DNA of 32,942 nucleotides. Source: Verrucomicrobiota bacterium (lineage in GTDB: Bacteria > Verrucomicrobiota > Verrucomicrobiia > Limisphaerales > J093). Positions 538 to 29,976 of this stretch are shown one piece after another. The translations under genes and the position numbers were made by a program. The notes beneath the pieces are model-generated. The model saw only the letters and a program-made list of their open reading frames with translations, did no database searches and had not been told where the DNA came from. The stretch's first letter is position 1. Each line of letters starts with the position of its first letter. The stretch is from positions 1-32,942 of the forward strand of contig JAAYVR010000077.1 of assembly GCA_012517065.1 (NCBI GenBank), read 5' to 3'.

Positions 538-601
538 AAGCCGCTGAAATCCGCCGGGCAAAGGTACGTTTATCTGGGAGAGGCCTCAGGTTTCCCGGCT
601 A
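538..601 (-). repeat. palindromic stop-codon repeat, copy A (3' of acpS)
   Basis: On the minus strand the copy begins with TAGCCGGGAAACCTGAGG, where TAG is the acpS stop codon. It ends with GGCGGATTTCAGCGGCTT, a degenerate inverse arm. Length (64 bp) and arms match the better-preserved copies at 5327, 11052 and 15371. It may act as a transcript 3' end, but it has no U-tract. Confidence 0.55.
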
Positions 602-1003
602 CCGAGCTGCAATCGACGGCTCTTGCACGCCCTCAATCACAGCAACAGCAGCAGCGTGGCTCTCAGTATGCGTCAGGCTAAGATGCACAAGTCTTCCGCC
701 TCTTGCCTCAAGGAGTCTGGCGCCCTTACCGTGAAGAACGACGTATGGTTGGCCCGATTCACGCCTGCGCACCTCGATATCCTGCCAGCCAAGATGCGGT
801 CCTATGCCGGTGCCGAAAGCTTTTGAGACCGCTTCCTTGGCGGCAAAACGAGCCGCAAGATGCGGACTTGGGTCCGCAAAACTCTGGCAATACCGAATTT
901 CCTCCTCCAAAAACAGGCGACGCAAGAAACGATCGCCGAAGCGGTCACAGGCTCTGGCAACACGGGCAACCTCGACAAGGTCAATTCCCACCCCAACAAT
1001 CAT
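599..1003 (-). CDS. acpS: holo-[acyl-carrier-protein] synthase
   Basis: Transfers 4'-phosphopantetheine from CoA to the serine of acyl carrier protein, activating it for fatty-acid synthesis in the cytoplasm. The 134-residue protein has the family's usual length. The N-terminal GVGIDLVEVARV segment contains the Mg-binding Asp8; FAAKEAVSKAFGTGIG at 53-68 contains Glu57; HLSLTHTESHAAAVAVIE lies at 107-124. The ATG is preceded by TAAAGGAGTCCGCA, in which AAGGAG is the ribosome binding site and TAA is the stop codon of pdxJ, so the two genes are probably translationally coupled. The pdxJ-acpS order is also known from E. coli. The TAG stop is the first codon of a palindromic repeat. Confidence 0.95.
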   Translation of the reverse strand: MIVGVGIDLVEVARVARACDRFGDRFLRRLFLEEEIRYCQSFADPSPHLAARFAAKEAVSKAFGTGIGPHLGWQDIEVRRRESGQPYVVLHGKGARLLEARGGRLVHLSLTHTESHAAAVAVIEGVQEPSIAAR

Positions 1004-1014
1004 TGCGGACTCCT

Positions 1015-1755
1015 TTACCCCTTGTACGACTCCAGTAAAGCCAGCATCTCGCGCACCGCGGCGGCCAGACCCACAAAGACGGCCCTGCTTATGATGCTAT
1101 GACCGATGTTCAGCTCAACAAGGTGCGGCACGGTAAGCAAATGCGGCAGGTTCGAATAGTTCAGTCCGTGACCTGCATTGACAAGCAACCCTAGAGCATG
1201 CGCCCTTCGCGCAGCAGTTATAAGGCGGTTCAGTTCGGCATCCCGTTTTTCCGGTTCTGAGAAACTGTTTGCAAACGACCCCGTATGCAACTCGACGAAC
1301 TGACTTCCAACCCGCGCTGCAGCTTCTATTTGCTCAATATCCGGCGAAACAAACAGGCTCACCTGAATGCCCATTTGGTTCATGCGCCGTCGCGTCTCCG
1401 CGATCTCACCCTCTGCCGCCAGAACGTTAAGACCTCCTTCCGTCGTAACCTCCTGTCTGCGTTCCGGGACGATACAAACTATTTCCGGTTTCAACCGCAG
1501 TGCGATTTCAACTATCTCGGGAGAATTTGCCATTTCGAGGTTCAACCGGGTCCGCACCACCTCGCGAAGTTTCCAAACGTCCCGGTCTTGTATGTGGCGG
1601 CGATCCTCCCTGAGATGCACCGTGATGCCGTGCGCACCGGCACGCTCACATTCAATTGCCGCTGCCACCGGGTCGGGTTCGCCAAAAGATTGTCCCCTGT
1701 AACGCGCCTCGCGAACAGTGGCAACGTGATCGATATTGACACCGAGCTTGAGCAT
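1015..1755 (-). CDS. pdxJ: pyridoxine 5'-phosphate synthase
   Basis: Condenses 1-deoxy-D-xylulose 5-phosphate with 3-amino-2-oxopropyl phosphate to pyridoxine 5'-phosphate, the last ring-forming step of the DXP-dependent vitamin B6 pathway. The protein has 246 residues, typical of PdxJ. It opens with [18 protein letters not shown] and contains [28 protein letters not shown] and [10 protein letters not shown], all characteristic of the family's TIM barrel and phosphate-binding regions. The frame stays open upstream to 2079, but the ATG at 1755 is chosen because TTAATCAGGAGTCAA precedes it, with a good AGGAG, and because homologues begin at [10 protein letters not shown]. Eleven bases separate it from the upstream lipoprotein gene. 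Confidence 0.96.
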
Positions 1756-1766
1756 TTGACTCCTGA

Positions 1767-3488
1767 TTAACGCCTGGGTGAAGGCACTTGCGGAACAGCC
1801 CTGCTTGCCGGCGCCGTGCGTATCGCGGAAGAACGCGCCGGGGCCGGATTGGTTGCAGCCGGCTTTGTGCGGTCGAGCCTGAGAAACGACGGGTTTATTT
1901 GCGGCGTGGTGAGCCTCGGGAACCCGGGGTCTTCCAGCCAACGCGCAATCAAGACCAACTCGAGGCTCGTGAATCCAACCGATGAGGACCGCACAAGATT
2001 CAGCTCGGCCGGGCTGGTGCACGTGACCTCTGTCACCGCGTTGTCCATGTGCCGAAACACGTTGGTGTCGGCCAGCCACAATCGCACCGCGCTGTTCGTT
2101 GGCAATGATTCGTAACCGGCGATCATCCAGTAAACTTCTTTCATCCTGCGCCAGTCATCGACTCGGACCTGGCTCAGTTCCCAATCGTAATACAAAAGAT
2201 TTGTCCGCCCGATAATCTGCGCATACAACTCTTGCGGCGCGGGCACAACCTTTGTATCAGGAGGGAAAATCCCCGCCATCACAAACCCTTTGTCGGCTGT
2301 GGGAGCTTGTTGGACGAATGGTTCGACAATGGGGAGACGGCGCCACACGTACCTGAGCTTGTTAGTCTCCGAATCGATGAATGCGAACCTCGTCCAATAG
2401 AGATGGTTCGTTACAGCAGAAGGTAAATACCGCGCCAGCCGTTGCAACGAGTCGCTCATGTCTTCCATTTCCCAAGCCATGTACGTGCGAAAAGGAATGT
2501 GCGCCTGCCCCCAGACAAAAAGCTGATTGGGAACAGATTTCACGCCGCTATCTTTGACCCACTGCTGAGAGCTCAGCCACGGCCTGAGCCCTTGGATTGC
2601 CGTAAACGAAACCAGCGGCTCGCTTATTGTGTTGGTCGGTATTCGCCATGGCTCAACACGAAAACCCGGTGGCCGCGAATAAGTCATCTGCGCTACCGTG
2701 CGCAAATTGGGACCACGGCCGACGACTTGCAGCTTCGTCTGCGGCCACGCAATTGTGCGCGACCAATTCAGCAACTCCGCGGTTCTCTCAAGGTCCGCTT
2801 GAATCGCAAGCCACGCCTCCTTGTCGGGTTGAACAGGACGGCCTTCTGACTTGATTCTGGCGAGCCATGTCGCTGCCATACTCTGAGCGCCGCTGCCCCA
2901 CGATAGAAGCAGCCAGTTGCCAGCTTCCAACACTCGTACCGTGCAAGCTGTTCCATCCCATTTGGCCTCGATCCCTTTGTACACTTCAAATTGCACTTCC
3001 GATGGCGCAGTGGCTCCGAGCATGCCGAGCGCTTTCTTCAGGTTTGCAAGCCAGACGGATGCCCGTTGCGGCGGCAGCTTGATCGCGAGATCAAGCTGCA
3101 GAGAGTGGCCGGCGACGTCCAACGACACCACCCCGGCCGATTCATGATCGAGTATGTCCCGGATCAAGGGCGCAATCAGCGAAGTGTGATCGCCGCCCGG
3201 CAACCGGGCATTGGCCGGAACAAGATTGGTCGTAGCACGCGCAAATTTCTTGACCACATCGTCAACCAGATTGCGAGTTGACGGTTCTGAAAGGACCTTC
3301 TGCAAACGAGTGGCGTTGGTATTCCCAGAGAGCGATGCAGCGCCAACAAAATGCCAGCTCGCCAAAGGCCCGGCTTTTATTGGTCCCGATTGCCCTGTGC
3401 CTGTCCCCAAAATGCCAGCCGTGTTGCGGGCGTCGCAACCGACAACCACAAACATGAACAGCACAGTGAATTGAATGCAGCGTGTCAT
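1767..3488 (-). CDS. putative lipoprotein of unknown function
   Basis: Not a recognised family. The 573-residue product starts [18 protein letters not shown], a short lipoprotein signal with lipobox VVGC and Cys18 as the probable acylated residue, so it is expected to be membrane-anchored and outside the cytoplasm. The rest is a soluble, tryptophan-containing sequence without obvious catalytic motifs; the last 30 or so residues are a Pro/Ala/Ser-rich tail. The frame is open 54 bases further upstream, but the lipoprotein signal decides for the ATG at 3488. It is followed after 11 bases by pdxJ, with the pdxJ ribosome binding site next to its TAA stop, so the genes probably share a transcript. 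It is divergent from the SurA-like gene across 147 bp. Confidence 0.8.
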
Positions 3489-3635
3489 AGCGCGCTCTTT
3501 TGAATGCCAGATAAAACCGCGATTAGCAAACGGAAACAGCATCGGCCATGCCCCGTCTCGGACCAGCTCCCTCTGGGTAGCATCGGATTCCTTGACCCCC
3601 TGTGTTTGTGCGTTTACTCTCCGAACTCACATTTG
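3489..3635. promoter_or_regulatory. divergent intergenic region (lipoprotein / surA-like)
   Basis: This 147-bp gap separates two divergently read genes and must hold the start signals for the plus-strand SurA-like gene and probably for the minus-strand lipoprotein-pdxJ-acpS operon. No convincing -35/-10 pair was identified by eye, and no clear Shine-Dalgarno precedes the ATG at 3636. Confidence 0.4.
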
Positions 3636-4607
3636 ATGAGGCGTTCTTGGATCAACATCATCGCCGCCACAACGGTGGCGGGTATCTCGGGTGCATGGGC
3701 CGCAACCACAGCCAATGGCCTTGTTGCCATCGTAAACGACGAAGCCATTACATGGAAGGAAGTGGCGCAGCAAGCCGCGATGGCAGTCGAGGCACGCATG
3801 GCTTCTCTTGCCGCCAGGTCTGCAAAACTCGAAGAGGAGATCAAGAAAGCCCAGCAGGATGCACTCGAAATGCTCGTGCAACGCAAGCTGATCCTGCACG
3901 AATTCAAACAGGCAGGATACAACCTGCCAGAAAGCCTGATCGAAGACAGGGTGCGCAGCAGGCTTCGTGAAAGGTGGGGCGGCGATAGGGCAACCATGAC
4001 GCGCGACCTCCAAAGCCGCGGAATGACCTTCGAGAAATACCGTGAAATGATTCGAGAAGAGATTATCTGGGAGGCAATGCGCGTCAAGAACGTCGCCCGC
4101 GAAATCGTTATCTCACCCCACAAAATCGAAAAGTATTACGCGGAAAACTTGGACAAGTTCAAGGTGGCCGACAGTGTCAAACTGAGAACCATCATGATTG
4201 CAAAGCCCGCGTCGGGTCCACCGGAACAGGCCCGCCGCCGCGCACTCGAAATCCTCAAGAAACTCGACGAGGGCGTGCCTTTTGCAGAACTCGCCGGCGT
4301 ATATTCCGAAGACAGTTTCCGCAACCAGGGGGGCGACCGCGGCTGGGTCGAATTGGAACGTGAACACTATCAACCGGCCCTTGACCAGGCCATCCGCGCC
4401 CTCAAACCCGGCGAGCACAGTGGGGTTGTGGAAACCGACAGAGCATTCTGGATCGTTCTGGTCGAGGATTCCAAGACAAGCCATATTCGCCCGCTTCCCG
4501 AAGTCCGGGCCGAAATCGAGCGCATTCTGACCGAACAGGAGAGAAACCGACTCGAAAAGGCTTGGATTGACCGCCTCAAATCCAAAGCTTTCATTCGGTA
4601 CTTCTAG
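3636..4607 (+). CDS. SurA-like periplasmic peptidyl-prolyl isomerase/chaperone
   Basis: Predicted exported folding factor for envelope proteins. The 323-residue product has a signal peptide (about 1-22, ending GAWA), a SurA N-terminal chaperone region (about 26-180, opening GLVAIVNDEAITWKEV) and one parvulin-type rotamase domain (about 181-280, with LRTIMIAKPA, FAELAGVYSEDSFRNQGGDRGW and LKPGEHSGVVET-like segments). E. coli SurA has two parvulin domains; one is common elsewhere. The frame extends upstream to 3504, but the ATG at 3636 immediately precedes the signal peptide. The stop codon TAG is followed at once by CCCGGAAGCCTCACC, an arm of the stop-codon palindrome family. The symbol surA is not assigned because other parvulin chaperones share this layout. 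Confidence 0.85.
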   Translation: MRRSWINIIAATTVAGISGAWAATTANGLVAIVNDEAITWKEVAQQAAMAVEARMASLAARSAKLEEEIKKAQQDALEMLVQRKLILHEFKQAGYNLPESLIEDRVRSRLRERWGGDRATMTRDLQSRGMTFEKYREMIREEIIWEAMRVKNVAREIVISPHKIEKYYAENLDKFKVADSVKLRTIMIAKPASGPPEQARRRALEILKKLDEGVPFAELAGVYSEDSFRNQGGDRGWVELEREHYQPALDQAIRALKPGEHSGVVETDRAFWIVLVEDSKTSHIRPLPEVRAEIERILTEQERNRLEKAWIDRLKSKAFIRYF

Positions 4608-4671
4608 CCCGGAAGCCTCACCTCCCCACAGACACACCCAAGCCTGCAGTCTCGCGAGAGTCACCGGAGCC
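4605..4671 (+). repeat. palindromic stop-codon repeat, copy B (3' of surA-like gene)
   Basis: The left arm TAGCCCGGAAGCCTCACC begins with the in-frame stop codon of the SurA-like gene. About 45 bases on, GCGAGAGTCACCGGAGCC is a degenerate match to the inverse arm GTGAGATTTCCGGGCTA. The total of about 67 bp fits the family. The left arm is clear, the right arm weak. Confidence 0.5.
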
Positions 4672-4932
4672 CGCAGGTTGCTGGATCCTAAGCAGCCGGC
4701 CGCTTTGCAGGCAACTCACGGTGTTCAACCGCATATTTCGTAGCCCGGCGTAGCCGGAACCAAAGTCGCCCCACGGGCCGTGCCCGGCTCTTGCACCCCA
4801 TGGACCTTCAGCCACGTCGGGCAGGGGAATATGCCCAGCGACTCCGTCGCAAGCAACAGCACGCTGATCCCAGTGGTTTCTCCGCGCTGCCGCATATGCA
4901 GTGGGCGTTGGTGGGCGCGAAGCGCTTGGAGT

Positions 4933-4950
4933 GCGGCAGCTTGCTGCCGC
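4933..4950. repeat. short perfect hairpin GCGGCAGC-TT-GCTGCCGC
   Basis: An 8-bp perfect stem with a 2-base loop, preceded by GCGCGAAGCGCTTGGAGT and followed by TTTG. It could form a tight RNA hairpin. As it is 325 bp beyond the nearest gene end, it looks more like a dispersed repeat unit than that gene's terminator. Confidence 0.5.
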
Positions 4951-4967
4951 TTTGTCTTCATGCACAA

Positions 4968-5212
4968 ACAACGTGCCTGGAACCATATCGGCATGATGGA
5001 GAGAACAACGTGTCTGTCCCCATATCGGCATCCGAGGGGTTCCTCCGCACACTTCGGCAGCCCCCGATTGGAACAAGGGGCAATTTGCAGGCCACGCCGC
5101 AATCCGGGGGCAAAACCCAAACAACGAGCCTGTCACTCTATTCGGGGCCACACTCAGACAACGGGCCTCCCAGTTTATGCGGAGCCTCGAGGCAACTACG
5201 TGTCTGTCCCCA
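4968..5212 (+). repeat. cluster of GTGTCTGTCCC-type motifs including a 138-bp block
   Basis: Motif copies start near 4968 (degenerate, ACAACGTGCCTGGAACC), 5007 (AACGTGTCTGTCCCCATATC), 5123 (AACGAGCCTGTCACTCTATT), 5160 (degenerate, AACGGGCCTCCCAGTTTATG) and 5198 (ACGTGTCTGTCCCCACGTGC). The segment 5007-5144 is a full-length relative of 29977-30113, sharing long stretches such as GGCCACGCCGCAATC and AACCCAAACAA. All motifs point the same way. Confidence 0.7.
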
Positions 5213-5326
5213 CGTGCATTCCAAGAATCGCCTTGCTGCCGCCAGCGCGTTGGCGGAATCGGTTCCGCCGGGGAGCGCGGCGTGCGGTCCGATAATTGAG
5301 ATTCTCTCGTCTGGGCGGGGGTTTCC

Positions 5327-5400
5327 TTGACCCGGAAATCTCACTGGAGTAAAGGCACGGGCGAATCCGAGGGGGCTGACCGATGAGATTTCCGGGTCAA
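5327..5400 (+). repeat. palindromic stop-codon repeat, copy C
   Basis: A perfect 17-bp inverted repeat: TTGACCCGGAAATCTCA at 5327-5343 and TGAGATTTCCGGGTCAA at 5384-5400, separated by 40 bases. The centre contains GAATCCGAGGGGGCTGACC, also found in copy D. Here the trinucleotide before CCCGG is TGA on both strands instead of TAG. No gene end abuts this copy; it lies 110 bp before the GH42 gene. Confidence 0.8.
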
Positions 5401-5509
5401 ACATGCGGGCTGATGCCAAATAGCCGTCTTTGTGAATCTGCGGAGTTTTTTGGTTTGCAGAGTTTCTGTTGGTGGGTATTTTCATCACGTAACCAACCAG
5501 AAAACAGCC

Positions 5510-7582
5510 ATGTACTTCGGAGTCGATTATCATCCAGAGCATTGGGTTTACCCCTACGCGGGTACACCTGAAGAACCAGAGACCCGCTGGGAACGCGATG
5601 CCCAGCTCATGGCAGCAGCCAGCGTCAACGTGGTGAGAATGGGCGAGTTCTGCTGGGGACTCTACGAACAAGAAGAGGGGAAATACGACTTCGAATGGAT
5701 GCGGCGTGTCATGGACATAATGAAAAAGCACAACATACAGGTTGTGCTGGGCACGCCGACAGCGGCACCGCCACTTTGGCTCGCTCACAAACACCCTGAA
5801 ATACTCCCTCTTGATGAACAGGGCCTGACGCTCCACGAAGGCACGCGACATGCCTATTGCATGAACAGCGACGTTTACTGGGACTACTCCAGAAGAATCA
5901 TCACGGCGCTCGCAGGGGCACTCGGAAACCACCCGCAATTGATCGCGTGGCAAATCGACAACGGCATCGGAGGCCATCGCACAGAGTTTTCGTTCAATGA
6001 AGAATCCAAGCACGACTGGCATGCATGGTTGAGAGCAAAATACGAGACCATTGACCGCTTAAACGAGTGTCTTGGGTTGAGGTTTTGGGGCCAGGTGGTC
6101 AACCGGTGGGAGGATGTCCCGATGCCCATGATGGCACCAACGGTCCACAACCCCGCTTTGGTCCTTGACTGGATGCGCTTCGCAAGCGACACCTGCATCG
6201 CATACGTCAAAATGCAGGCCGACCTCCTCCACGAACTTACCCCGGGCATTCCGGTGACGACAAACCTCCGCGCCCTTTCCAGACATTACGATCACTTTGA
6301 CATGGCAGAAGTGCTGGACTTTGTCTCGTTGGACACTTACGCAACCCTTCAAAGACGCCCATCAGAGAACGCTGCCGAGTACGACATCATGCGTTCCCTC
6401 AAAAAATCCGGAATCAAGACACCGGACGGACAGGAAGGTTTCTGGGTGATCGAACAAAAAGCGGGCAATGTGAACTGGCAGGAAGTCAATTCCCTGTTGC
6501 GGCCCGGCGTGGTTCGGCTCTTCACATATCAGCTTCTGTCGCGTGGCGCAACGGGCGTGCTCTATTTCTTCTGGAGATCACCGAGAATAGGTTCCGAGAA
6601 GTTTTACGGCGGCGTCCTCACGCACGACGGACGTGGCGACAACCGCGTTTATCGCGAAATCTGCCAGATCGGCGAAGAGATGAAATTGCTGGCGCCAATA
6701 CTGCGCGATACCAAGGTCGTGGCCGAAACTTGTATCCTGTTCAGCCACGCCAACGATTGGAAACTCAAACAGCCGCAGCAGCATACGGCCCATTTCAAGC
6801 TGCGCGATCATATCATGCTATTTTACAACGCCTTGCACGACCTTAATATCCCGGTCGATTTCGCACGGCCGACCGATGATTTATCTGGTTACAAGGTGGT
6901 GTTTGCTCCGTCCCTGCACCTGCTGGCCGGCGGCGAAGCTGACCTACTCAAATTGTATGTCCACAACGGCGGAACCCTCGTCGCCACATTCAACACCGGC
7001 CTTGTGGACGAGCACGATATCGCCCCTGACAACGGTTTTCCCCATGACATGACCGACATGTTCGGGCTGGAGGTTCTTGAATTCGATCCCATCCCGCCCG
7101 AGGAAGAAAACCACCTGCTTTTCAAGCCGCAATTCCCGGCCACGCACTCGCATGCAGGCCGAATCTGGTGCGACGTTATCGAGCCAAAAGAATGCCAGGT
7201 TCTTGCAACGTTCACCCGGGACTTTTACGCCGGACGTCCCGCGCTCACCATCAACGGCTTCGGCGCCGGCCGGGCGGTCTATATTGGCACAATGTGCAAA
7301 CAGAACTTCTATTACGACCTCGTCAACTGGCTCCGCCAAATCTGCAACATAACCCAGCCCCTCAAAGTCCCGGAATCTGTCGAGGTAAGCATGCGCCAAA
7401 AGGGCGACACACGAATCTATTTTCTGCTCAATCATCAAAGCAGCCCTGTCCGAGTCAGCTTTTACAAACCAATGCACGACTACTTAACCGGCAGCACATT
7501 GACCGGTCACCACGACATCCCGCCACACGGGGTGTTAGTCCTTGATGAACGGCTCCCGCAGTCCCAGACAGCCCCCGCCTGA
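5510..7582 (+). CDS. GH42 beta-galactosidase-like protein, acid/base Glu replaced
   Basis: Glycoside hydrolase family 42 enzymes remove terminal beta-galactosyl (in some members other) residues from oligosaccharides. The 690-residue length and the order of TIM barrel (about 1-380), trimerisation-like domain (about 390-600) and C-terminal beta domain fit GH42. Diagnostic segments are FGVDYHPEHW, VVRMGEFCWGLYE, GTPTAAPPLWLAHKHPEILP and FWVIEQKAGNVNW, whose Glu315 matches the nucleophile. The usual acid/base segment WQxDNE reads WQIDNGIGGH, with Gly152 (GGC at 5963-5965) in place of Glu. The protein is therefore either inactive, uses another acid, or belongs to a subgroup with altered chemistry. 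The start at 5510 fits homologues (MYFGVDYHPE); no Shine-Dalgarno and no signal peptide are visible, so it is probably cytoplasmic. Confidence 0.9.
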   Translation: MYFGVDYHPEHWVYPYAGTPEEPETRWERDAQLMAAASVNVVRMGEFCWGLYEQEEGKYDFEWMRRVMDIMKKHNIQVVLGTPTAAPPLWLAHKHPEILPLDEQGLTLHEGTRHAYCMNSDVYWDYSRRIITALAGALGNHPQLIAWQIDNGIGGHRTEFSFNEESKHDWHAWLRAKYETIDRLNECLGLRFWGQVVNRWEDVPMPMMAPTVHNPALVLDWMRFASDTCIAYVKMQADLLHELTPGIPVTTNLRALSRHYDHFDMAEVLDFVSLDTYATLQRRPSENAAEYDIMRSLKKSGIKTPDGQEGFWVIEQKAGNVNWQEVNSLLRPGVVRLFTYQLLSRGATGVLYFFWRSPRIGSEKFYGGVLTHDGRGDNRVYREICQIGEEMKLLAPILRDTKVVAETCILFSHANDWKLKQPQQHTAHFKLRDHIMLFYNALHDLNIPVDFARPTDDLSGYKVVFAPSLHLLAGGEADLLKLYVHNGGTLVATFNTGLVDEHDIAPDNGFPHDMTDMFGLEVLEFDPIPPEEENHLLFKPQFPATHSHAGRIWCDVIEPKECQVLATFTRDFYAGRPALTINGFGAGRAVYIGTMCKQNFYYDLVNWLRQICNITQPLKVPESVEVSMRQKGDTRIYFLLNHQSSPVRVSFYKPMHDYLTGSTLTGHHDIPPHGVLVLDERLPQSQTAPA

Positions 7583-7626
7583 ACATCGCCGGCAATTGCC
7601 CCCAATTCGATGCCCGCTCTCTCACT

Positions 7627-8037: not shown

Positions 8038-8065
8038 TTGCCACCGCACCAGTTCCACAATCACT

Positions 8066-8098
8066 CAGTTCGTGAAATGCGCGGGCCAGATCGAACTG
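8066..8098. terminator. weak hairpin between convergent genes
   Basis: CAGTTCG at 8066-8072 and CGAACTG at 8092-8098 form a 7-bp stem with a 19-base loop in the 69-bp gap between the converging DciA-like gene and def. There is no T-tract on either side. A bidirectional terminator role is possible but poorly supported. Confidence 0.25.
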
Positions 8099-8106
8099 GA
8101 ATAAGG

Positions 8107-8694: not shown

Positions 8695-8703
8695 TCTATG
8701 AAA

Positions 8704-9834: not shown

Positions 9835-9879
9835 GTTGTTAACAAACGATCAGGTTATCAGCCCCGAAAATCAACAGCG

Positions 9880-10812: not shown

Positions 10813-11201
10813 GCCCACCCAGTGTCCAGAAGGACAACCCAATTGTCAACGCAGAGGATTTGTGAGACCATCACGCGCCGTTCAATCGCAGGTTTTCAGC
10901 CGCAAACCAATCAGAGCAAGCGAAACCGACGTTGCAACCTTGGGTTTGCCCTGCGGCACGCATAGTATCCCGCTATTGGCCCCGTCTGAGACAGAGCTTC
11001 GTCCACGGGCGGACGCCAACCTTTGCGTTTGCTATTTGCGTTTGCTTCGTCTTAGCCCGGAAATCACACTCGAATACAGGAATGGGTGAATCCGAGGGGT
11101 GGCTGGCCAGATTTCCGGGAGTGAGCTTGACACCACAACAGGTCGCGTGTTATTACTCTGCCGACCACATTTAGCTGTATGGTCACCAACCAAACTCGAT
11201 A
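10813..11201. other. divergent intergenic region parB / nrdR
   Basis: No gene is supported in this 389-bp gap. It must hold the promoters of the parB operon and of nrdR. The only distinct element is palindromic repeat copy D (11052-11120). A short plus-strand frame ends at the TAG edge of that repeat but is open for only 20 codons, so it is not called a gene. Confidence 0.5.
11052..11120 (+). repeat. palindromic stop-codon repeat, copy D
   Basis: Left arm TTAGCCCGGAAATCACACTC and right arm CCAGATTTCCGGGAGTGAG flank a centre containing GGTGAATCCGAGGGG and GGCTG, which matches copy C. It lies 80 bp upstream of nrdR and no recognised gene ends at its edge. Confidence 0.7.
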
Positions 11202-11687: not shown

Positions 11688-12207
11688 GTCTGACGCGGAC
11701 CAGATTTCGTGCGAGGCTGACCAGGTCTCGATCGAGCTGGTGGGCGCAGAACAGCATGGTGTCACCCAGCAGGTGCTCGAGAACGCCGCAGCAGCCGTGC
11801 TGCATTACTTCAGGACCGAGAAAGGGCTCAAGAACGTGTCGTTGAATGAGTTTGCGCATGCGATGGTGTTGGTGCTGCGCGGCTTTGGGTTCAACGTGCG
11901 TGTAGAGGATGAAGAGCCACCGCCGGTTCGAGTAATGGAAACTGACCTTGAAGGAATCGCCAAAGAATGTGGAGGCGCGTTTGAACTTGGGTTTTTCCCG
12001 AGATTGCGGCGCGAACTTGAAGTGCACCTTGAACAGGAACCGGAGGTCATACGTTTCACCGGCCTGCGTTCGTGTGTCATGCGGCTGTCGGGATCGCAGC
12101 GGTGGGGCCAGCGTTGCCAGGCGTTGAACGATCAAATAGTTGATTACATGCGTGATTGCCTCGGGCGTTTGCCCGGGAAAATCCGGTGCGCAGTAGTTGT
12201 GGAGTAA
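11653..12207 (+). CDS. hypothetical protein overlapping the end of nrdR
   Basis: I do not recognise this family. The frame is open well upstream inside nrdR, so the start is uncertain. GTG at 11653 is proposed because GAGGTG lies 5 bases before it, giving 184 residues and a 35-base overlap with nrdR. GTG at 11740 (155 residues) is the alternative. The product contains VTQQVLENAAAAVLHYFRTE, NEFAHAMVLVLRGFGFNV, an acidic stretch EDEEPPP and a C-terminal QRCQALNDQIVDYMRDCL, with mixed helical character and no signal peptide or membrane span. Continuous coupling to nrdR suggests a nucleotide-metabolism or regulatory link, but that is inference from position only. Confidence 0.65.
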   Translation: MTPRPFACLVFRSDADQISCEADQVSIELVGAEQHGVTQQVLENAAAAVLHYFRTEKGLKNVSLNEFAHAMVLVLRGFGFNVRVEDEEPPPVRVMETDLEGIAKECGGAFELGFFPRLRRELEVHLEQEPEVIRFTGLRSCVMRLSGSQRWGQRCQALNDQIVDYMRDCLGRLPGKIRCAVVVE

Positions 12208-12262
12208 ACCGAACCCCGGTGATTTGCTTCGTCGGACGGGCACCCCTTGTTGAATCATACCA

Positions 12263-12604
12263 ATGAGCAAGACATTGTTCGAAAGAATCTGCAATCGTGA
12301 GCTGCCGGGAGATATTGTTTGGGAGGATGACCTCGTAGTTGCTTTCCGGGATATCAACCCGCAGGCACCCGTTCACGTGCTTGTCGTGCCACGCAGGCCA
12401 ATCCCACGCCTGTCAGATGCCAAACCGGAAGACAAAGAGTTGCTCGGGCACGTGTTGCTGGCAGCAGCGAAGGTGGCAGAGGTTCTCGGGCTCAAAAACG
12501 GATATCGCCTTGTGCTCAACACTGGCCACGACGCTGGAGAAGCCATTCCGCATCTTCACTTTCATCTGATTGGAGGGCGGAGGATGCGTTGGCCTCCCGG
12601 GTGA
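12263..12604 (+). CDS. HIT-family (HinT-like) nucleotide-binding hydrolase
   Basis: Histidine triad proteins hydrolyse nucleoside phosphoramidates or related AMP-linked substrates. The 113-residue protein starts LFERICNRELPGDIVWEDD, contains FRDINPQAPVHVLVVPRRPI, and ends with the triad HLHFHLIGG, in which His97, His99 and His101 form the active-site motif (His99 and His101 catalytic by analogy). Length and architecture are those of HinT/protein kinase C inhibitor-like proteins. It sits 55 bp after the unknown gene and 63 bp before hisC on the same strand. No Shine-Dalgarno is apparent. Confidence 0.93.
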   Translation: MSKTLFERICNRELPGDIVWEDDLVVAFRDINPQAPVHVLVVPRRPIPRLSDAKPEDKELLGHVLLAAAKVAEVLGLKNGYRLVLNTGHDAGEAIPHLHFHLIGGRRMRWPPG

Positions 12605-12667
12605 AAGCGACGTCCTGCGGTTTGACTTGTGTGCGGGTTTGGTGGACCATAGCCGCTGTAGCTTTCT

Positions 12668-13819
12668 ATGAGCATCAAAGATAAACCAGAGCACCGCCAA
12701 ACCCAAAGTGGCAACACCACACCCCTCCGGCTGAACTCGATGTTGGAAAACCTGCCCGTGTATCAGCCGGGCAGACCCATTGAAGAAGTCGCGCGCGAGC
12801 TCAATCTGCCGCCGGACGATCTGATCAAGATGGCTTCGAACGAAAACCCGCTCGGGCCATCGCCAATGGCACTTGAAGCTCTGGGCCACGCTCTGTCAAA
12901 ACTGCACCTTTACCCCGACGGGAACTCTTATTACCTCAAACAAAGGCTTGCGCGGCACCTTGATGTTGATCCTTCGTGCATCGTTTTGGGGAACGGATCC
13001 AACGAGGTGCTTGAACTGGTTGGCCATGCACTGATAGCACCAGGAAGCGAGGTCGTGGTGTCCCAGTATTGTTTTGCCGTTTATCCAATCGTGACCCACC
13101 TGTTCGGCGGCAAGCTGGTCATGGTACCCGCACGTGGACTCGCTCACGACCTCCACGCAATGCGAGTTGCCGTGACGACCCGGACAAACGTGATGTTCGT
13201 GGCAAATCCAAACAACCCAACCGGAACTCTGGCCAGCCATGGCGAAGTAATGGAACTGATCGAGTCGATGCCCGCCGACGTGTTGTTGGTAATAGACGAG
13301 GCTTATATCGAGTACCTCGAAGACCCGCTGGATTTGCTCCCATTGGTGCGCGCAGGCCGGCAAAACCTCTTGCTTACGCGCACATTCTCGAAAATCCACG
13401 GCTTGGCAGGCCTCCGCGTGGGATATGGCATTGGACATCCAACCCTGATCGCCGCTCTCGAGAAAGTCCGCGAGCCGTTCAACATCAATTCCGCCGCGCA
13501 GGCGGCCGCAACTGCGGCTTTGGATGACAGCGCGCACATGAAACGCACACGCGAGAACAACAAAGCGGGCCTCGAGTTTCTCGAGCAATCATTCCGCAAG
13601 CACAATATCGAGTACGTGCCTTCCTCGGCGAATTTCATTCTGGTGCGTGTGGGCAACGGCCAGCGCGTGTTTGTCGAAATGCAGAAACTGGGCGTGATTG
13701 TTCGTCCGATGGGCGGGTATCAACTGCCCGAATACGTCCGCATTTCGGTGGGAACACCTGCGGAGAATCAGCGATGCGTTGATGCCCTGTGCAAGGTTTT
13801 GGGAATCGCGACCGGTTGA
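12668..13819 (+). CDS. hisC: histidinol-phosphate aminotransferase
   Basis: PLP-dependent class I/II aminotransferase, predicted to convert imidazole acetol phosphate to histidinol phosphate in histidine synthesis. Over 383 residues it shows KMASNENPLGPSP (54-66), GNGSNEVLELVGHA (108-121), ANPNNPTGT (179-187), the VIDEAYIEY box with Asp210, and RTFSKIHGLAGLRVGY, whose Lys242 should bind PLP. It ends with a conserved VRISVGTPAEN segment. Some HisC homologues act on aromatic amino acids, so substrate is inferred. Homologues usually begin near residue 25 (MLENLP), so the N-terminal 24 residues may be an overcall. No other his gene is in the window. Confidence 0.92.
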   Translation: MSIKDKPEHRQTQSGNTTPLRLNSMLENLPVYQPGRPIEEVARELNLPPDDLIKMASNENPLGPSPMALEALGHALSKLHLYPDGNSYYLKQRLARHLDVDPSCIVLGNGSNEVLELVGHALIAPGSEVVVSQYCFAVYPIVTHLFGGKLVMVPARGLAHDLHAMRVAVTTRTNVMFVANPNNPTGTLASHGEVMELIESMPADVLLVIDEAYIEYLEDPLDLLPLVRAGRQNLLLTRTFSKIHGLAGLRVGYGIGHPTLIAALEKVREPFNINSAAQAAATAALDDSAHMKRTRENNKAGLEFLEQSFRKHNIEYVPSSANFILVRVGNGQRVFVEMQKLGVIVRPMGGYQLPEYVRISVGTPAENQRCVDALCKVLGIATG

Positions 13820-13922
13820 CGACAGCGCAACCCGCGCAGGGAATCCAGCCGTATCGCGGCTCAGGCCCAAGTCAACCACGGTGCTATGTCGTATCCCCCG
13901 GGCTCGTCCCGTTGCAGAGATT

Positions 13923-15332
13923 ATGAACTACTGTTCTGCCTTAACGGCTCGGCCTTTTCGCGGAAAGCGCCAGCTCGGGTCGCAGTGCAATCCGATTTGC
14001 ATTGCGCCGAAGCGTTTACTGATTCTGATTGCCCTGGTTGGCGCGACGAGCTTTCCGGCCAATTGGTTTGGCATCGAGGTGAAAGGCGGTGAAATTTCTG
14101 AGACCTCGAACGGAACCGACCATGGGACTGCAACTTGGAAGCAGGCGGTTGACTCATGGGTGCCGTCATGGTTGGCCAAAGCACCGGCATTGCCACCGCC
14201 AAAAGGACAAGTGATCCGCGTTGCCAACGCGGACGACTTGTTGGCAGCGGTGGATCGCATCGAACCCGGCGGAACGATCCTCCTTGCCGACGGGCATTAC
14301 CGCGTCCCACATGTCATTGTTCTTGAAGGAAAGACTGACGTCGCCATCAGAAGCGCTTCCGGAGACCCTTCGAACACCGTTCTCAGCGGCAAAGGTTGGG
14401 ACAGGGGGAACGGTGGCGATGACATTCTGCACATCGGTCACTGCAACGGTGTGACGATAGCGGACCTCACGTTTGCGGATTGCCGTTCCTACGGAATCAA
14501 GGTCGAGGCAGAAAAAGGTCCGAAGAATGTTCACATCTACAACTGCCGGTTCCGGGACATCGGTGTGCGTGCCATCAAAGGGTCGGCCAGCCAAGACCCC
14601 AACCTCAGGGCGGTGAAGGGCTCGGTTCGCTACTGTGTGTTCGAGAACACGCGGATTCCGCCCGCAGACTGGTTGTTTGGGGGCGATTACATTTCAGCCA
14701 TTGACATGATGGCGCTCGAAGACTGGACCTTTGCCGACAATGCCTTCAGAAACATCCGCGGACGAAATGGCGGCGGGCGCGCAGCAATCTTCATCTGGGT
14801 TCGATCGAGGGATATTGTGGTGGAACGAAACCTGATCCTCGACTGTGATCGAGGTGTGGCATTTGGCAATCCCGGCCAGTCAACTGCAAATCTCCCCGGA
14901 GAGCGCATTGTGCACGTAGTTGACGGTGTCATCCGCAACAACTTCATCAGTGGTGGTCATGATTGTGGGATCGAACTGTGGTATGCTCAGCGCATCAAGG
15001 TCCAACACAACAGTATCTGGCGCCCGGAACAAAACTGGCGCCGCGGCATCCGCATCGGAACCGGCACGGCACAAGCCGATATCGTGAACAACCTTGTGCA
15101 TGGTGACATCCTGGCCGAGGGCGGCGAGGCGCAGCTCAAGAGCAACCTTGTTGGCCGGCTGGAAGGTTATTTCGCCGCCCCATCACGTGGCGACCTTGCT
15201 TTGACTTCCGATGCGAGTCGCGCGATCCACCAGGGCGTGCGCTTGCCCGAGGTCGAGGAGGACATCCGCAGACGACCGCGCTCAGAACATCCAGATTTGG
15301 GCGCATGGGAATCTGAAGCGAGGCCTCGCTAA
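13923..15332 (+). CDS. secreted right-handed beta-helix protein
   Basis: Predicted exported protein of 469 residues with a hydrophobic N-terminal segment (about 29-45, RLLILIALVGATSFPANW). The body resembles parallel beta-helix polysaccharide lyase/NosD-type proteins: GGTILLADGHYRVPHVIVL, then a ladder of short strands (VTIADLTFADC, VHIYNCRFRDIG, WTFADNAFRNI, IVVERNLILDC, VIRNNFISGG, IKVQHNSIW, ADIVNNLV). It ends HPDLGAWE, a common closing motif in such proteins. No catalytic residues can be assigned; polysaccharide binding or cleavage is inference. The frame is open upstream to 13698 inside hisC, but the ATG at 13923 precedes the signal-like region. Its TAA stop is directly followed by CCCGGGGAAACC. 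Confidence 0.82.
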   Translation: MNYCSALTARPFRGKRQLGSQCNPICIAPKRLLILIALVGATSFPANWFGIEVKGGEISETSNGTDHGTATWKQAVDSWVPSWLAKAPALPPPKGQVIRVANADDLLAAVDRIEPGGTILLADGHYRVPHVIVLEGKTDVAIRSASGDPSNTVLSGKGWDRGNGGDDILHIGHCNGVTIADLTFADCRSYGIKVEAEKGPKNVHIYNCRFRDIGVRAIKGSASQDPNLRAVKGSVRYCVFENTRIPPADWLFGGDYISAIDMMALEDWTFADNAFRNIRGRNGGGRAAIFIWVRSRDIVVERNLILDCDRGVAFGNPGQSTANLPGERIVHVVDGVIRNNFISGGHDCGIELWYAQRIKVQHNSIWRPEQNWRRGIRIGTGTAQADIVNNLVHGDILAEGGEAQLKSNLVGRLEGYFAAPSRGDLALTSDASRAIHQGVRLPEVEEDIRRRPRSEHPDLGAWESEARPR

Positions 15333-15350
15333 CCCGGGGAAACCTTCCTG
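15330..15350 (+). repeat. half copy of the stop-codon palindrome (3' of beta-helix gene)
   Basis: TAACCCGGGGAAACCTTCC starts with the TAA stop codon of the beta-helix gene and matches the arm seen in the ICMT-like gene copy (TAGCTTGGAAACCTTGCC on its strand). No matching inverse arm follows before copy E begins at 15371. Confidence 0.45.
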
Positions 15351-15370
15351 CCTGACCAGACCAAGACACC

Positions 15371-15442
15371 TAACCCGGAAATCTCACCGCGATGAAAGCT
15401 TTGGTCGTCTTTGGCCAGTCAGGCGGTGAGATTTCCGGGCTA
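15371..15442. repeat. palindromic stop-codon repeat, copy E, between convergent genes
   Basis: TAACCCGGAAATCTCACCGC at 15371-15390 and GCGGTGAGATTTCCGGGCTA at 15423-15442 are inverted copies (19 of 20 match) with a 32-base centre. On the minus strand the outer TAG (15442-15440) is the stop codon of the zinc ribbon gene. It could act as a terminator-like hairpin between the converging genes; there is no long T-tract. Confidence 0.85.
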
Positions 15443-15664
15443 AAACTTGTACACATCGTTCGTCTGTCCGCATTGCGGACACCGGGATCGGTCCACATCC
15501 GGATCGTCTGTGTAAACATATCCGCAACCCTCGCAGCGGAAGATGTGGTCTGCTGACCCCATGAAACCAAAGCTGCGTCTTCGGATTTGACGGAGAAAAG
15601 AAAGCACCCCAACGCAGGTCAACAGCGTCAGCATGTACAGAAAAATGATCTTGCCAATGCTCAT
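15440..15664 (-). CDS. small membrane-anchored zinc ribbon protein
   Basis: The 74-residue product has one N-terminal transmembrane helix (about 5-24, KIIFLYMLTLLTCVGVLSFL) followed by a basic stretch and a C-terminal zinc ribbon with CEGC (Cys44, Cys47) and CPQC (Cys62, Cys65), presumably cytoplasmic by the positive-inside rule. No family name is known to me. Its ATG overlaps the TGA of the TonB-like gene (ATGA), implying translational coupling and a role connected with the ExbB/ExbD/TonB-like cluster. The stop codon lies inside the palindromic repeat. A rubredoxin-like electron-transfer role is less likely, because the knuckle context and spacing differ. Confidence 0.8.
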   Translation of the reverse strand: MSIGKIIFLYMLTLLTCVGVLSFLRQIRRRSFGFMGSADHIFRCEGCGYVYTDDPDVDRSRCPQCGQTNDVYKF

Positions 15665-16494
15665 GAGACCGGCGGTGAAGCATTAGTTGAAGACGGCGCC
15701 GGAGCTGAGACAGGCGCAGGCTCGCGGGTCATCCAAACAAATGTTATGATCCCCCATTGGAGCCCACCTGAGGAGGCATCATTCGCCCGCGCAAACGTCA
15801 ACCCCCTGGCAAATTCGAGCGCGCGTTCGTCCGCTGCAGCAAGACCGCTCCGGCTCAGAAGAGTCGCATTGATAACATGACCGTATTCGTCCAACAGCAC
15901 CTGAACCGAAGTGGGAAGAAGAACATCGGTGAATTCCCATGTCGGCAGCGCTGGCGGATTCAGCAGTTGTCTGCGCGCCAGATTGCCTTCGAGTCGAATT
16001 GTGGAATTCGTCAGCAATGGCCTGATTTGAACCCCGCCAATCTCAGGCGGAACCGGCCGCACGAGGGGAATTTGAAGAGGCGTGGAATCAACCTGTGGCT
16101 GGCCACGGCTTCCCTTGATCTGAATGCTGATCTGGTCGGGCTGCAACCAGCGGTACGGCTCGGCAATGGCTGGCCGGTCTTGTCCAACATCAGTCAAACC
16201 GAACCACAAACGCCCGGAAAAACCATTTGAGCTCACGAGGGCATTATTGGCCGGGTCCCTCATTACAAACAGCTCAGCATGCGGGTCAGCTTGGTCAATC
16301 GCTGTCAGCAGGCAGATGCCCGTTCCCAAGTCAGTCAAATGGTCGGATTTGTGTTCGGGCTTGGCAGATAAAAGAGAGATAAACGTCAATTGCGCAACGA
16401 AAACGGCCGCGACCACCCCCATCCACCTGCGCGTGGACCAATCCCTTTTCTGGTTCGGCGGATTTCTGCCGTTCTGCCGAGTATCAGCAACCAT
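15661..16494 (-). CDS. TonB-like energy transducer, divergent
   Basis: A 277-residue protein with a single N-terminal membrane span (about 24-44, RWMGVVAAVFVAQLTFISLL), a long linker with proline-rich stretches (about 140-155) and a TonB C-terminal-like domain around residues 195-262: SVQVLLDEYGHVINATLLSR, then AADERALEFARGLTFARA. TonB proteins couple the ExbB/ExbD proton channel to outer-membrane transporters. The central part (50-135) is not recognised. It follows the ExbD-like gene by 69 bp and overlaps the zinc ribbon gene by 4 bases. The C-terminal tail is Pro/Ala/Ser-rich. Confidence 0.72.
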   Translation of the reverse strand: MVADTRQNGRNPPNQKRDWSTRRWMGVVAAVFVAQLTFISLLSAKPEHKSDHLTDLGTGICLLTAIDQADPHAELFVMRDPANNALVSSNGFSGRLWFGLTDVGQDRPAIAEPYRWLQPDQISIQIKGSRGQPQVDSTPLQIPLVRPVPPEIGGVQIRPLLTNSTIRLEGNLARRQLLNPPALPTWEFTDVLLPTSVQVLLDEYGHVINATLLSRSGLAAADERALEFARGLTFARANDASSGGLQWGIITFVWMTREPAPVSAPAPSSTNASPPVS

Positions 16495-16563
16495 GGCGTT
16501 TCATCTGATTTCGCACGAGCCTGTTCTTGACCCCTTCTCCGGCTCGCGTCGGCGCAACCGGTC

Positions 16564-17010
16564 TCATTGTGTTCCCTGGCTCTCCGGCCGCGTTGGAAAC
16601 AGCGGCTGGCGCACTGCCATTATCACTTCGCTTATCCCAGACCGCTTTGCAAGCGTTGCGAGGCGGAGCACTTCGCCTTGTCGGACGTTCTCGTCCGCCA
16701 TCAGAACCAATTGAACCGGGTGTTTGCTCGCCGCCACTCTGTCAGCGAGCTTGTCTCTGAGCTGCTTTTCACCTATGACCTGATGCTCGAAATAGATCAA
16801 GCCGTTCTGGTCTATTGCGACAACCAATTCTGGAGCAATCGAGGTTGGGCGGGGCATTGGCGGCACTTCCGGGAGTTCAATTCGGACGCCTGGCGCAGGC
16901 GCCAGAGACGAGTGCAGGACCAACATCAACAGCAACAGCAGAAAAACCGCGCAGAATGACCCAACATCCAGCACGTCGTCCATCGGCTTTATCGAACAAC
17001 GAAACTTCAT
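16564..17010 (-). CDS. ExbD/TolR-family protein lacking the membrane Asp
   Basis: 148 residues with one N-terminal membrane helix (about 17-35) and a periplasmic domain containing GVRIELPEVPP, LVVAIDQNGLIYFEHQVI and VQLVLMADENVRQGEVLRL, as in ExbD/TolR. These proteins form a proton-driven channel with ExbB/TolQ. Aligning backwards from the SSLAPAPGVRIELP segment to typical ExbD places an Ala (in FCAVFLL) where the strictly conserved, proton-carrying Asp is expected; the nearest acidic residue, Asp15, lies at the membrane edge. The start codon follows the ExbB-like stop by one base. A non-energised or altered role is possible. Confidence 0.85.
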   Translation of the reverse strand: MKFRCSIKPMDDVLDVGSFCAVFLLLLLMLVLHSSLAPAPGVRIELPEVPPMPRPTSIAPELVVAIDQNGLIYFEHQVIGEKQLRDKLADRVAASKHPVQLVLMADENVRQGEVLRLATLAKRSGISEVIMAVRQPLFPTRPESQGTQ

Positions 17011-17011
17011 T

Positions 17012-17632
17012 TCAAGACGATTTCGGTGGCTCCGTCAGGAACCGTACTATTTCGGTCGCTGCCTTTTCCATGTCCCGAACAATGTCTCGAACCCGGCTCA
17101 GAAGATAACTGTGACCCGCTATGCACGGGATTGAGATGGCCAGTCCCATGCCAGTGTTCACAAGGGCCTTCCACACTCCGCCTGCAAGTTGGTTCATGGG
17201 CGCTGACACGCCCTCATGTTCGAGCACCTGGAACACGTCGATAAACCCCAACACTGTTCCCAAAAGCCCCATTACAGGCGCAATTCGAGCAATCGTGACC
17301 AGCAATGGCAACCGTTCTTCCAATCTCGGAATCTCGTCATTGGCGATCTCTTCCAACACCTGGCGGATTTGTTCCTTGCCTCGATCACGGTTCAGTATGG
17401 CGCTCTTGACCAAACGCGCGACCGGCCCGGCAGTTGCGTCACAGATCGATATTGCTTCAACCACATTATCCCGTTTCAAGACATTGCGCACCCCGTTGAT
17501 GAAATCCAAAGAGTTGATCTGCTCACGGTGATAATGGAGCATTCGCTCAATGAAAACAGCTACTGCAACTGCCCCAACAACCAACAGCAGCCACATCATC
17601 ACACCGCCATGCTTGATCAACTCAGGTAACAT
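17012..17632 (-). CDS. ExbB/TolQ/MotA-family proton channel protein
   Basis: 206 residues with three membrane spans: about 11-29 (VMMWLLLVVGAVAVAVFIE), about 109-132 (LLVTIARIAPVMGLLGTVLG) and about 155-178 (ALVNTGMGLAISIPCIAGHSY). The APVMGLLGTVLGFIDVF and NTGMGLAISIPCIA segments are the family signature. ExbB/TolQ proteins build the pentameric inner-membrane channel whose proton flow drives TonB or TolA. A good ribosome binding site (GAAGGAACGT before the ATG) is present, so this is the probable first gene of the exbB-exbD-tonB-like-zinc ribbon operon. Whether it serves a Ton or a Tol system cannot be decided from this protein alone; the TonB-like neighbour favours Ton. Confidence 0.93.
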   Translation of the reverse strand: MLPELIKHGGVMMWLLLVVGAVAVAVFIERMLHYHREQINSLDFINGVRNVLKRDNVVEAISICDATAGPVARLVKSAILNRDRGKEQIRQVLEEIANDEIPRLEERLPLLVTIARIAPVMGLLGTVLGFIDVFQVLEHEGVSAPMNQLAGGVWKALVNTGMGLAISIPCIAGHSYLLSRVRDIVRDMEKAATEIVRFLTEPPKSS

Positions 17633-17836
17633 ACGTTCCTTCTATACCCCGAACCGCCCGCCAGCAGCAACGATCAAATGGCCGCAAAACCTAACCAACA
17701 GCGGCAGACCTCAGTAAAACTCGGCTCTTTGACAGGATACATTCGCAGCTTCAATGCCCTCCCCGTTGTCCAAATGAAGCCTTAACCGGCACCCTGATCC
17801 CTCCGGCTTGACCAGGCCAGTGACATCGAGTCCGGC

Positions 17837-18148
17837 AAATATCGTGTCTGTCACCCTATTTGCTCCGCAGCCGCAAGAACCCCACTAACGGCATTCAACC
17901 CTCCTCGGAAACTTCAGACCTGACGCGCCAATAACATCGTGCCTGTCCCTCTATTCGTTCAGCCAGCGCCAACCCGCGGCAGCCCCTCCTCGGAAACCGC
18001 ACTCAGGCTGCCACGATGCCTGCCCAGGTCGGTTCGACGCGGCCGCCACAACATCGTGCCTGTCCCTATATTCGTTCAGCCACCACCAAACCCCAGCCAA
18101 CACCTCACAACGATCCCCGGAAACTTCAGGTATGACGCGAGAATACGT
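17837..18148 (+). repeat. three imperfect tandem units of the GTGTCTGTCCC-type repeat
   Basis: ATCGTGYCTGTC occurs at 17841, 17936 and 18053 (spacing 95 and 117 bp), each followed by a TATTYG end. Near the end of each interval there is a CGGAAACTTCAGACCTGACGC-like segment (clear at 17906 and 18117). The layout repeats at 22475-22569. Confidence 0.7.
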
Positions 18149-18416
18149 GCCCGGCCACCTTCAACACCTCTGCCCCCTTGGCTCGACTTCGGCCTTCCAC
18201 CCCTTACTCGATCGCTCTCACCTTCTGATCACGCAACACATAAACTTAACGAGGCTCAGACTTCCTGACCCCGCCGCACAGAGGTCCTCGAACCAGAATT
18301 TGGGCTGATACCAATTCCCCAAAACTTTGCCTTATTACCAACGGTTTATGTGCGCAAACCTCGTCGTGGTGGGTAAGGAAAGGTTCAGCGCTTTTTCCGC
18401 GACGTCATGGGGTCTG

Positions 18417-18456
18417 AGGCTCCGCCTCGGACCGACCGGCCATGTCGTGCCACAAT
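18417..18456 (-). repeat. third dispersed repeat, copy 1 (GGCAC..CATGGCCGGTCGG)
   Basis: On the minus strand ATTGTGGCACGACATGGCCG continues as GTCGGTCCGAGGCGGAGCCT; it aligns with 30266-30304 at roughly three quarters of positions. It also forms a partial hairpin (GAGGCTCCGCCTC at 18416-18428, plus strand). Confidence 0.5.
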
Positions 18457-18590
18457 ACCCAACTTGGTACTCGCAGCCATGCGTACTTGGTTCGCCTCGC
18501 CAGAATGTGGCTGCGCCGCGGCCATTCTGTTCCTCGGCAGAGGGAATTGAGTCAGCACGTGCCACTGCCATGGCCGTGTTTCCCGGTCCC

Positions 18591-18661
18591 AACCCGGGAA
18601 TCTAACCGGGAATAAAGCGTCGGGTGTCTTGGGCAGGTTGGCCGGCAAGGTTTCCAAGCTA
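18591..18661. repeat. palindromic stop-codon repeat, copy F (3' of ICMT-like gene)
   Basis: On the minus strand the copy opens with TAGCTTGGAAACCTTGCC, whose TAG is the stop codon of the ICMT-like gene. The far arm, plus strand AACCCGGGAATCTAACCGGG, is degenerate. The interior GAATAAAGCG...GGGTGTC...GGTTGGCCGG aligns with copy D. Confidence 0.6.
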
Positions 18662-29773: not shown

Positions 29774-29976
29774 ACCTTTGCCAAGGTTCTGCAGCCACTC
29801 CGGTCCTTGCCAAACGGAATTCATTCGGCACATGACACCCACCGTGCACACGAGCTCGGCTGTCTCCTCAGCCAAATCAACCTGAAGATCAGTCGTACCC
29901 AACGGTCCAATCTCCCAAGCCCGCGGCCCGGACCTCTACGGGTTCGCAACCCCGAGCCTGGCACTTTATCGAAAAC

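Follow-up and report, generated by a model that had tools for sequence, protein, structure and literature searches.

The 32,942-nucleotide stretch considered here (the window; contig JAAYVR010000077.1 of a Verrucomicrobiota bacterium, handled as contig C205 of a genome of 5,258,718 bases in 298 contigs) contains several copies of a short, dispersed palindrome, here termed element A, which in several places lies directly against the stop codon of a gene. The genes concerned are an acpS-like gene (4'-phosphopantetheinyl transferase; 599–1003, minus strand; Pfam PF01648), a SurA-like peptidyl-prolyl isomerase gene (3504–4607, plus strand; PF13616/PF13624), a gene for a right-handed beta-helix protein (13698–15332, plus strand; PF13229), a small rubredoxin-like zinc-ribbon open reading frame (ORF; 15440–15652, minus strand; product ending in CPQCGQTNDVYKF before the stop; PF21349 below its curated cut-off), and a PEMT/ICMT-like methyltransferase gene (18659–19126, minus strand; PF04191/PF04140). 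The initial annotation recognized at least six palindromes (at 538, 4605, 5327, 11052, 15371 and 18591) and a half copy (15330), and held that the in-frame stop codon of each of these five genes formed an edge. Gene coordinates confirm this for the SurA-like TAG (4605–4607), the beta-helix TAA (15330–15332), the zinc-ribbon TAG (15440–15442, minus strand) and the ICMT/PEMT-like TAG (18659–18661, minus strand). The acpS stop was also read correctly (TAG, 599–601, minus strand), but the element adjoining it is doubtful.

Four copies of element A and a half copy are sound in the window. The arm CCCGGAAATCTCACC (up to 3 mismatches) is found 11 times, against 1.03 expected from shuffled sequence; eight matches fall in the copies discussed here, and three (14088, 22154, 29270) resemble chance matches. 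A profile of genome copies, whose input included window copies 15374, 5331 and 11056 among those offered but not 18593, matches 15374–15439 (E 7e-16), 5331–5396 (6e-13), 11056–11119 (1e-9) and 18593–18655 (9e-9), with no match at E<1e-3 in the reversed-sequence control. The best copy (15374–15439) has perfect 15-nt arms, folds far better than shuffled sequence (z −8.6), and lies between direct repeats of CTAA (15370–15373 and 15440–15443), the right one of which holds the zinc-ribbon stop. It abuts the end of the older half copy (15333–15370), which begins directly 3' of the beta-helix stop and which the profile alone finds weakly (E 5.8), although its core bases 15350–15370 match a common family core at all 21 positions. 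A genome of the same genus, G001, also has an A element at the zinc-ribbon stop. The copy at 5331–5396 has edges TTGA and TCAA, and gene calls give no stop at either; that at 11056–11119 has TTAG at its left edge and a decayed right edge, and is shared with G001. The older copy at 18593–18658 has CCAA on its left and, on its right, a CTAA containing the ICMT/PEMT-like stop, where G001 likewise carries an A-like arm. Directly 3' of the SurA-like stop, behind the 4-mer CTAG (4604–4607), lies a decayed copy (4608–4660) with one clear arm (2 mismatches), the other half having decayed (profile E 1.6). The copy claimed beside acpS (538–598) is not supported as an A element: it gives no profile match at E<10, its fold is no better than that of shuffled sequence (z 0.03), and its likeness to A is limited to a few bases beside the stop. 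The window has no Rfam match at gathering scores. In G001 (contig C5, L260), the insertion site corresponding to 15374–15439 carries the asymmetric core in the opposite orientation, as if the core had flipped between the arms or been converted, and a G001 deletion has its end within this same element, at the counterpart of 15440.

Beyond the window, element A is abundant. The arm occurs 773 times in the genome at up to 2 mismatches, against 5 matches for the reversed pattern. The element is 65 bp long in 74 of 92 copies (first 1.09 Mb), has no coding capacity, and consists of terminal inverted repeats of 15–16 nt starting CCCGGAAATCTCACC around an asymmetric core, which exists in several types and in both orientations. 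It adjoins a second palindrome, B (CCCGCATATTTCATACC...GGAATATGCGGG), in 24 copies whose outer edge is clear, forming a composite that measures 133 bp in 20 of the 24; the GGGC edge of many A copies is this internal A/B junction and not a target. Within 1.61 Mb there are 131 two-armed copies; seven of these, flanked by B-like sequence whose edge is not clear, were excluded, leaving 124 insertions for scoring; one-armed copies (42 arm matches in 1.09 Mb) stand outside all counts. A strict two-arm pattern recovers 58 stretches from a genome collection that may omit the window's own genome, all of them from three metagenome-assembled genomes of Verrucomicrobiota (A05DMB-I-23, RA.bin27 and ADurb.Bin006). 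Among 39 relatives, G001 has 34 copies, G010 has 23 and G002 has 2; the other 36 have none.

Comparison of filled and empty sites bears out the suggestion that the palindrome is mobile. At L094:6900–7032, the 133-bp composite is flanked by TTAG on both sides, while G001 lacks the composite and has a single TTAG between flanks that are 97–98% identical. At L154 (A05DMB-I-23, same genus), a 65-bp A lies between two copies of CTAA, and a related repeat copy in the window's own genome (L059) has one. L078 has TCAG on both sides of its copy, and G001 (L135) presents a gapless empty site. Three further loci (L079, L336, L265) fit a 4-bp duplication when set against repeat copies with a single CCAG or CTGG, with one of the two edge copies carrying a mismatch in each case; L079 and L336 have the same flanks and are perhaps one event. 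Presence and absence between related genomes are thus seen at L094/L253 and L078/L135. Queries made from joined flanks gave a clean match for 5 of 211, most having no counterpart in the relatives' DNA compared. A possible empty site at a stop codon (L111:4455/L257) was set aside, as a remnant resembling the right arm behind the gene's own TGA makes it probably a shared, decayed copy.

The target-site duplication is 4 bp long, and the 133-bp A+B composite moves as one unit. Both edges still carry the same 4-mer in 18 of the 124 copies; composites retain it in 10 of 24 cases and singles in 8 of 100, each more often than permuted edges do (P 0.026 for both). Counted per base, edge matches exceed expectation most at length 4 (+25.1) and next at length 5 (+14.5), with no positive excess at any of the five further lengths examined. 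Five of the insertions at stop codons have identical 4-mers on both sides.

The duplicated sequence is strongly preferred. Relative to background, CTAG is 324-fold enriched at the edges of the 124 insertions, CTAA/TTAG 175-fold, TTAA 27-fold and CTGG/CCAG 16-fold, and insertions away from stop codons, taken alone, give the same YTAR-like position weights. The impression gained from the window that the edge varies mostly within the set of stop codons does not extend to the genome: among 184 edges of 92 copies, TAA (25), TAG (24) and TGA (12) stand beside TGG (26), CAG (21), GGC (18) and others, and the rule is instead a 4-bp YTAR-like target.

An excess at in-frame stop codons, as the initial annotation predicted, does exist genome-wide, but its size depends on what is expected. 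Nineteen of the 124 insertions coincide precisely with an in-frame stop (TAA 7, TAG 7, TGA 5), against 0.7–1.9 under a flat null; five gene calls that overlap elements were dropped from this scoring, and the count is probably too low, since the home-made gene finder misses small genes (the zinc-ribbon stop at 15440 was not reported as at-stop). Under a null that weights each 4-mer by its use among the targets of non-stop insertions, the expectation rises to about 10–18: 17.7 of the 34 insertions within 20 bp of a stop (P 0.39), 16.2 of 52 within 50 bp (P 0.24), 13.8 of 69 within 100 bp (P 0.08) and 10.3 of 81 within 200 bp (P 0.005). Which stops are used follows the same sequence preference. 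Stops within YTAR make up 15% of all stops (141 of 959), yet receive 11 of the 19 insertions, a rate of 11 per 141 as opposed to 8 per 818 for the others (Fisher P 1.3e-5); a Y precedes the stop in 14 of 19 cases, compared with 44% of stops (P 0.008); and TGA, the commonest stop, is disfavored. That the preceding base and YTAR govern the choice among stops points to a 4-bp target and not to recognition of the stop codon. Most of the stop enrichment, and perhaps all of it, therefore follows from the target sequence, although a residual bias toward stops of up to a few-fold may exist beyond it.

Whether the stop codons predate the elements can be asked of 24 genes (the 19, plus the five in the window), nine of which have a homolog reaching within 12 residues of the C-terminus; the other 15 have none in the relatives' DNA compared. 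Two matches to L125, at 27–28% identity, were disregarded. In three of the nine, the relative's stop lies at the same codon and no element stands beside it. The gene at L078 ends ...GAG GTC TGA, and its G001 counterpart ...GAG GTT TAG; the homolog of the window's SurA-like gene in RA.bin27 (L184), 63% identical at the protein level, closes with ...CGG TAT TAT TAG and is followed by unrelated sequence, not by an element; and the counterpart of L125:4107 in G001 ends CGT TAG. Four genes (L094:3429, L111:18342, and those for the zinc ribbon and the ICMT-like protein) share the element at the same stop with their relatives, and for two (acpS and beta-helix), whose homologs belong to another genus, the last residues differ. 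The idea that the element itself supplies the stop thus finds no support in the three genes of the first kind; it does hold at L126:13106, taken up below.

We consider it very probable (roughly 0.87) that element A is a transposon resembling a miniature inverted-repeat transposable element (MITE), mobilized in trans by a DDE-type transposase with duplication of a 4-bp YTAR-like target, and that a stop codon at its edge is usually a duplicated stop that the gene already possessed. Such a transposase would recognize the terminal repeats of A, which start with CCCG, and would insert the element at CTAG, CTAA or TTAG and more rarely at CTGG or YTGA, with the duplication of four bases that the filled and empty sites show. 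A stop would be the first such site downstream of a reading frame that tolerates an insertion. TAA and TAG lie within YTAR, and so an insertion at a stop duplicates the stop and spares the gene; with a full stop kept on the gene side, it would be neutral and retained, whereas insertions within reading frames would mostly be lost. The stop-codon edge would then be, as a rule, one of the two copies made from a stop that was there before. The A+B composite may be moved by this transposase or by a relative of it.

Several observations weigh against this reading. No transposase with A ends was found in the families and genomes surveyed (below), nor do the 1.61 Mb contain two YYRR-CCCG ends that lie 500–3500 bp apart and share their 4-mer. 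The two edges have ceased to match in 14 of the 19 at-stop insertions, and eight of the 19 targets are not YTAR. A first test for duplication was weak (6 exact matches against 3.2 expected, and 18 against 17.8 with one mismatch), having been made on 92 copies with composites mixed in, before the composites were recognized. The comparison at L125 lacks a clean empty site, since an A copy whose right junction is the same occurs in G001, some 180 bp further along. At L126:13106, the copy entered the end of the gene, and the protein, unlike that of G001, ends in residues encoded by the element and a new stop. Finally, a null built from position weights instead of 4-mers expects only 11.7, 9.1, 7.2 and 5.2 at-stop insertions (within 20, 50, 100 and 200 bp), leaving stop use 1.6- to 3.7-fold above expectation (P 0.008, 9e-4, 6e-5 and 6e-7).

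This last residue, together with the significant 4-mer result at 200 bp, is what would be expected if A targeted stop codons, or the 3' ends of genes, in their own right, for example by way of the transcription or translation machinery. The genomic context of the 98 insertions placed between two called genes (26 of the 124 are not so placed) could be read similarly: convergent intergenic regions hold 27 where their length predicts 17.5, and divergent regions 16 where 25.0 are predicted. But purifying selection against promoter insertions explains this pattern equally well, since over-use of convergent and under-use of divergent regions is expected if insertions in promoters are lost; moreover, the excess over 4-mer weights is not significant at 20, 50 or 100 bp, the base before the stop steers the choice, TGA is avoided in spite of its frequency, and insertions off stops use the same kind of target. 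We regard direct targeting of stops, which the initial annotation had raised, as quite unlikely: the preferred target is YTAR, whether or not it is a stop, and the enrichment at stops would be largely indirect. A second proposal of that annotation was a palindrome that supplies a stop together with a 3' hairpin in the transcript. That A, bringing its own stop, is retained at gene ends for the sake of such a hairpin (a terminator or a stabilizer of the mRNA end) appears very improbable. Many A copies do lie downstream of genes, the L126 copy does supply a stop, and folding of six window stretches gave two that outdid every one of 200 shuffles (z −8.6 and −4.8). The remaining four, among them the weak or doubtful copies at 4605 and 538, are unremarkable (z from −1.5 to +1.5). 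In the 101 copies for which the 65-nt A part was taken, all 16 arm pairs are within about 3 copies of the expectation for independent columns, and so reveal no compensatory pairing that would support a selected hairpin; at-stop copies pair no better than those far from gene ends (14.5% and 15.3% broken pairs); G.U wobble pairs are not in excess on the sense strand (31 vs 51); and no T-rich tract follows the stem in the first 8 flanking bases of 184 flanks. Where comparison could show it, the stops were there already. With pairing neither maintained nor favored at stops, the arms look like transposase sites decaying after insertion.

The search for a transposase covered four families, in incomplete draft genomes. 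The window's genome has one full copy of IS1380 (PF13701), with other ends; PF13546, which we take to be of IS701 type, is absent from this genome and from G001, and has no A ends in the 15 genomes searched; and 22 PF01609 loci in four genomes show A or B ends only as partial matches. Two pairs of arms about 1.3 kb apart on other contigs, which might have delimited a full-length insertion sequence (IS), proved to be independent A copies or lone arms, and what lies between them is either ordinary genes or no gene at all; a pair of A-like ends 1577 bp apart at L274 encloses a gene mosaic, not an element. Translation of 12 repeated or arm-flanked genes (1.09 Mb) gave no obvious transposase with A ends; one of them, at a contig end (L058), resembles an rve-type transposase by eye.

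The fourth family, Y1_Tnp (PF01797), has eight matches in the window's genome, and bears on the possibility that A is a repetitive extragenic palindromic (REP) sequence moved by a REP-associated tyrosine transposase (RAYT). Four loci of a multi-copy Y1 gene were inspected; at two of these, A or the composite lies a few hundred bp away (L109:508–640 and L128:648–712), at a third (L302) A is 1.9 kb distant, and at the fourth (L090) there is none near; among the 12 Y1 loci that the family search covered, one (L207) has an A arm. REPs tagged with GTAG also furnish genes with TAG stops, as Di Nocera et al. report (2013, PMC3733652). We nevertheless find this origin scarcely credible. The edge of A differs between copies and is duplicated, and is therefore a target and not a fixed GTAG tag; A is 65 bp long, not 20–40; and the A copies of L109 and L128 are outside the repeated stretch bearing the Y1 gene (1–383 and 1–498, respectively), a stretch with another repeat, of CGTGTCTGTCCC type. 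IS200/IS605-type insertion, moreover, is not known to produce a target duplication. The A copies near Y1 loci are read as sharing intergenic space, although a link to Y1 may exist. In G006, a genome of the same family, 56 Y1_Tnp matches, many of them at contig ends, are a strong RAYT or IS200-type expansion.

As a MITE-like, non-autonomous mobile element, A is a new family of a known kind. It shares with bacterial MITEs its short length, lack of coding sequence, terminal inverted repeats, high copy number and mostly intergenic position. Like IS5, which is described as duplicating 4 bp at the motif YTAR (PMC10359306), it duplicates a 4-bp YTAR-like target; A also uses CCAG/CTGG and other 4-mers. 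It differs from them in its CCCGGAAATCTCACC ends, its asymmetric core and its movement either alone (65 bp) or as the 133-bp composite with B, and no partner IS with A ends was found in the families and genomes searched, the 22 PF01609 loci being without matching ends. Judged from sequence, A appears to be a MITE-like element with an IS5-type target, which we do not assign to a particular IS family because no partner transposase was found. IS711 of Brucella has the target consensus YTAR as well, along with a reported preference for palindromic repeats; unlike A, it is a full insertion sequence and is described as duplicating only the central TA (PMC2266754).

The initial annotation knew of no named family with this relation to stop codons, which was too strong, as the TAG end of GTAG-tagged REPs and bacterial interspersed mosaic elements (BIMEs) has been reported to give stop codons to flanking ORFs (PMC3733652). 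These resemble A in being dispersed palindromes, often just after genes, and in forming dimers of two palindromes; A differs in its variable, duplicated YTAR-like edge without a fixed GTAG or CGTC tag, in its length of 65 or 133 bp, and in having no firm link to a Y1 gene in its own genome. QMITE2 of Coxiella, an element unrelated to A, lies at the end of a gene and in one strain supplies C-terminal residues and a nearby stop, much as at L126:13106; the available passages describe no target duplication at stops, in which A is different (PMC5896051). A literature search of partial coverage returned no description of element A, or of a duplicated stop codon as a general cause of such edges.

Other repeats accompany element A. 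A third palindrome family, C (CCCGCATATTTCCCAGCCCGGCG..., about 112 bp), occurs in the window at 4728–4870 and elsewhere in the genome (e.g., L071:3943 and L059:11443); it often begins at TTAG or CTAG, and 15 of its 86 arm matches coincide exactly with a called stop; A is thus not alone in showing the stop-edge pattern. One might speculate that the transposase evolved, or was retained, for a target at which insertion into a stop codon repairs itself, combined with a further direct bias toward translation stops or 3' ends, and that palindromes ending in CCCG (A, B and C) have specialized on gene ends as a safe harbor; we think this rather unlikely. A dispersed repeat of AACAACGTGCCTGTCCCTATTCG type is found at 170–205, 4993–5144, 17827–18105, 22461–22587 and 29971–30118, and similar sequence occurs upstream of the multi-copy Y1 (RAYT-like) transposase gene at contig ends. 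Toward the end of the window, repeated units about 339–375 bp apart (31256–32676 and 32440–32941) fall within the span of one long minus-strand ORF (30484–32925), and include a 157-nt direct repeat that is 99% identical.

These results add abundant MITE-like families to a little-studied verrucomicrobial lineage, and offer a simple, testable reason why palindromes may end at stop codons: duplication of a 4-bp YTAR target that contains TAA or TAG. The same reasoning may apply to other elements with YTAR targets, and merits a check before a repeat with a stop codon at its edge is called regulatory.

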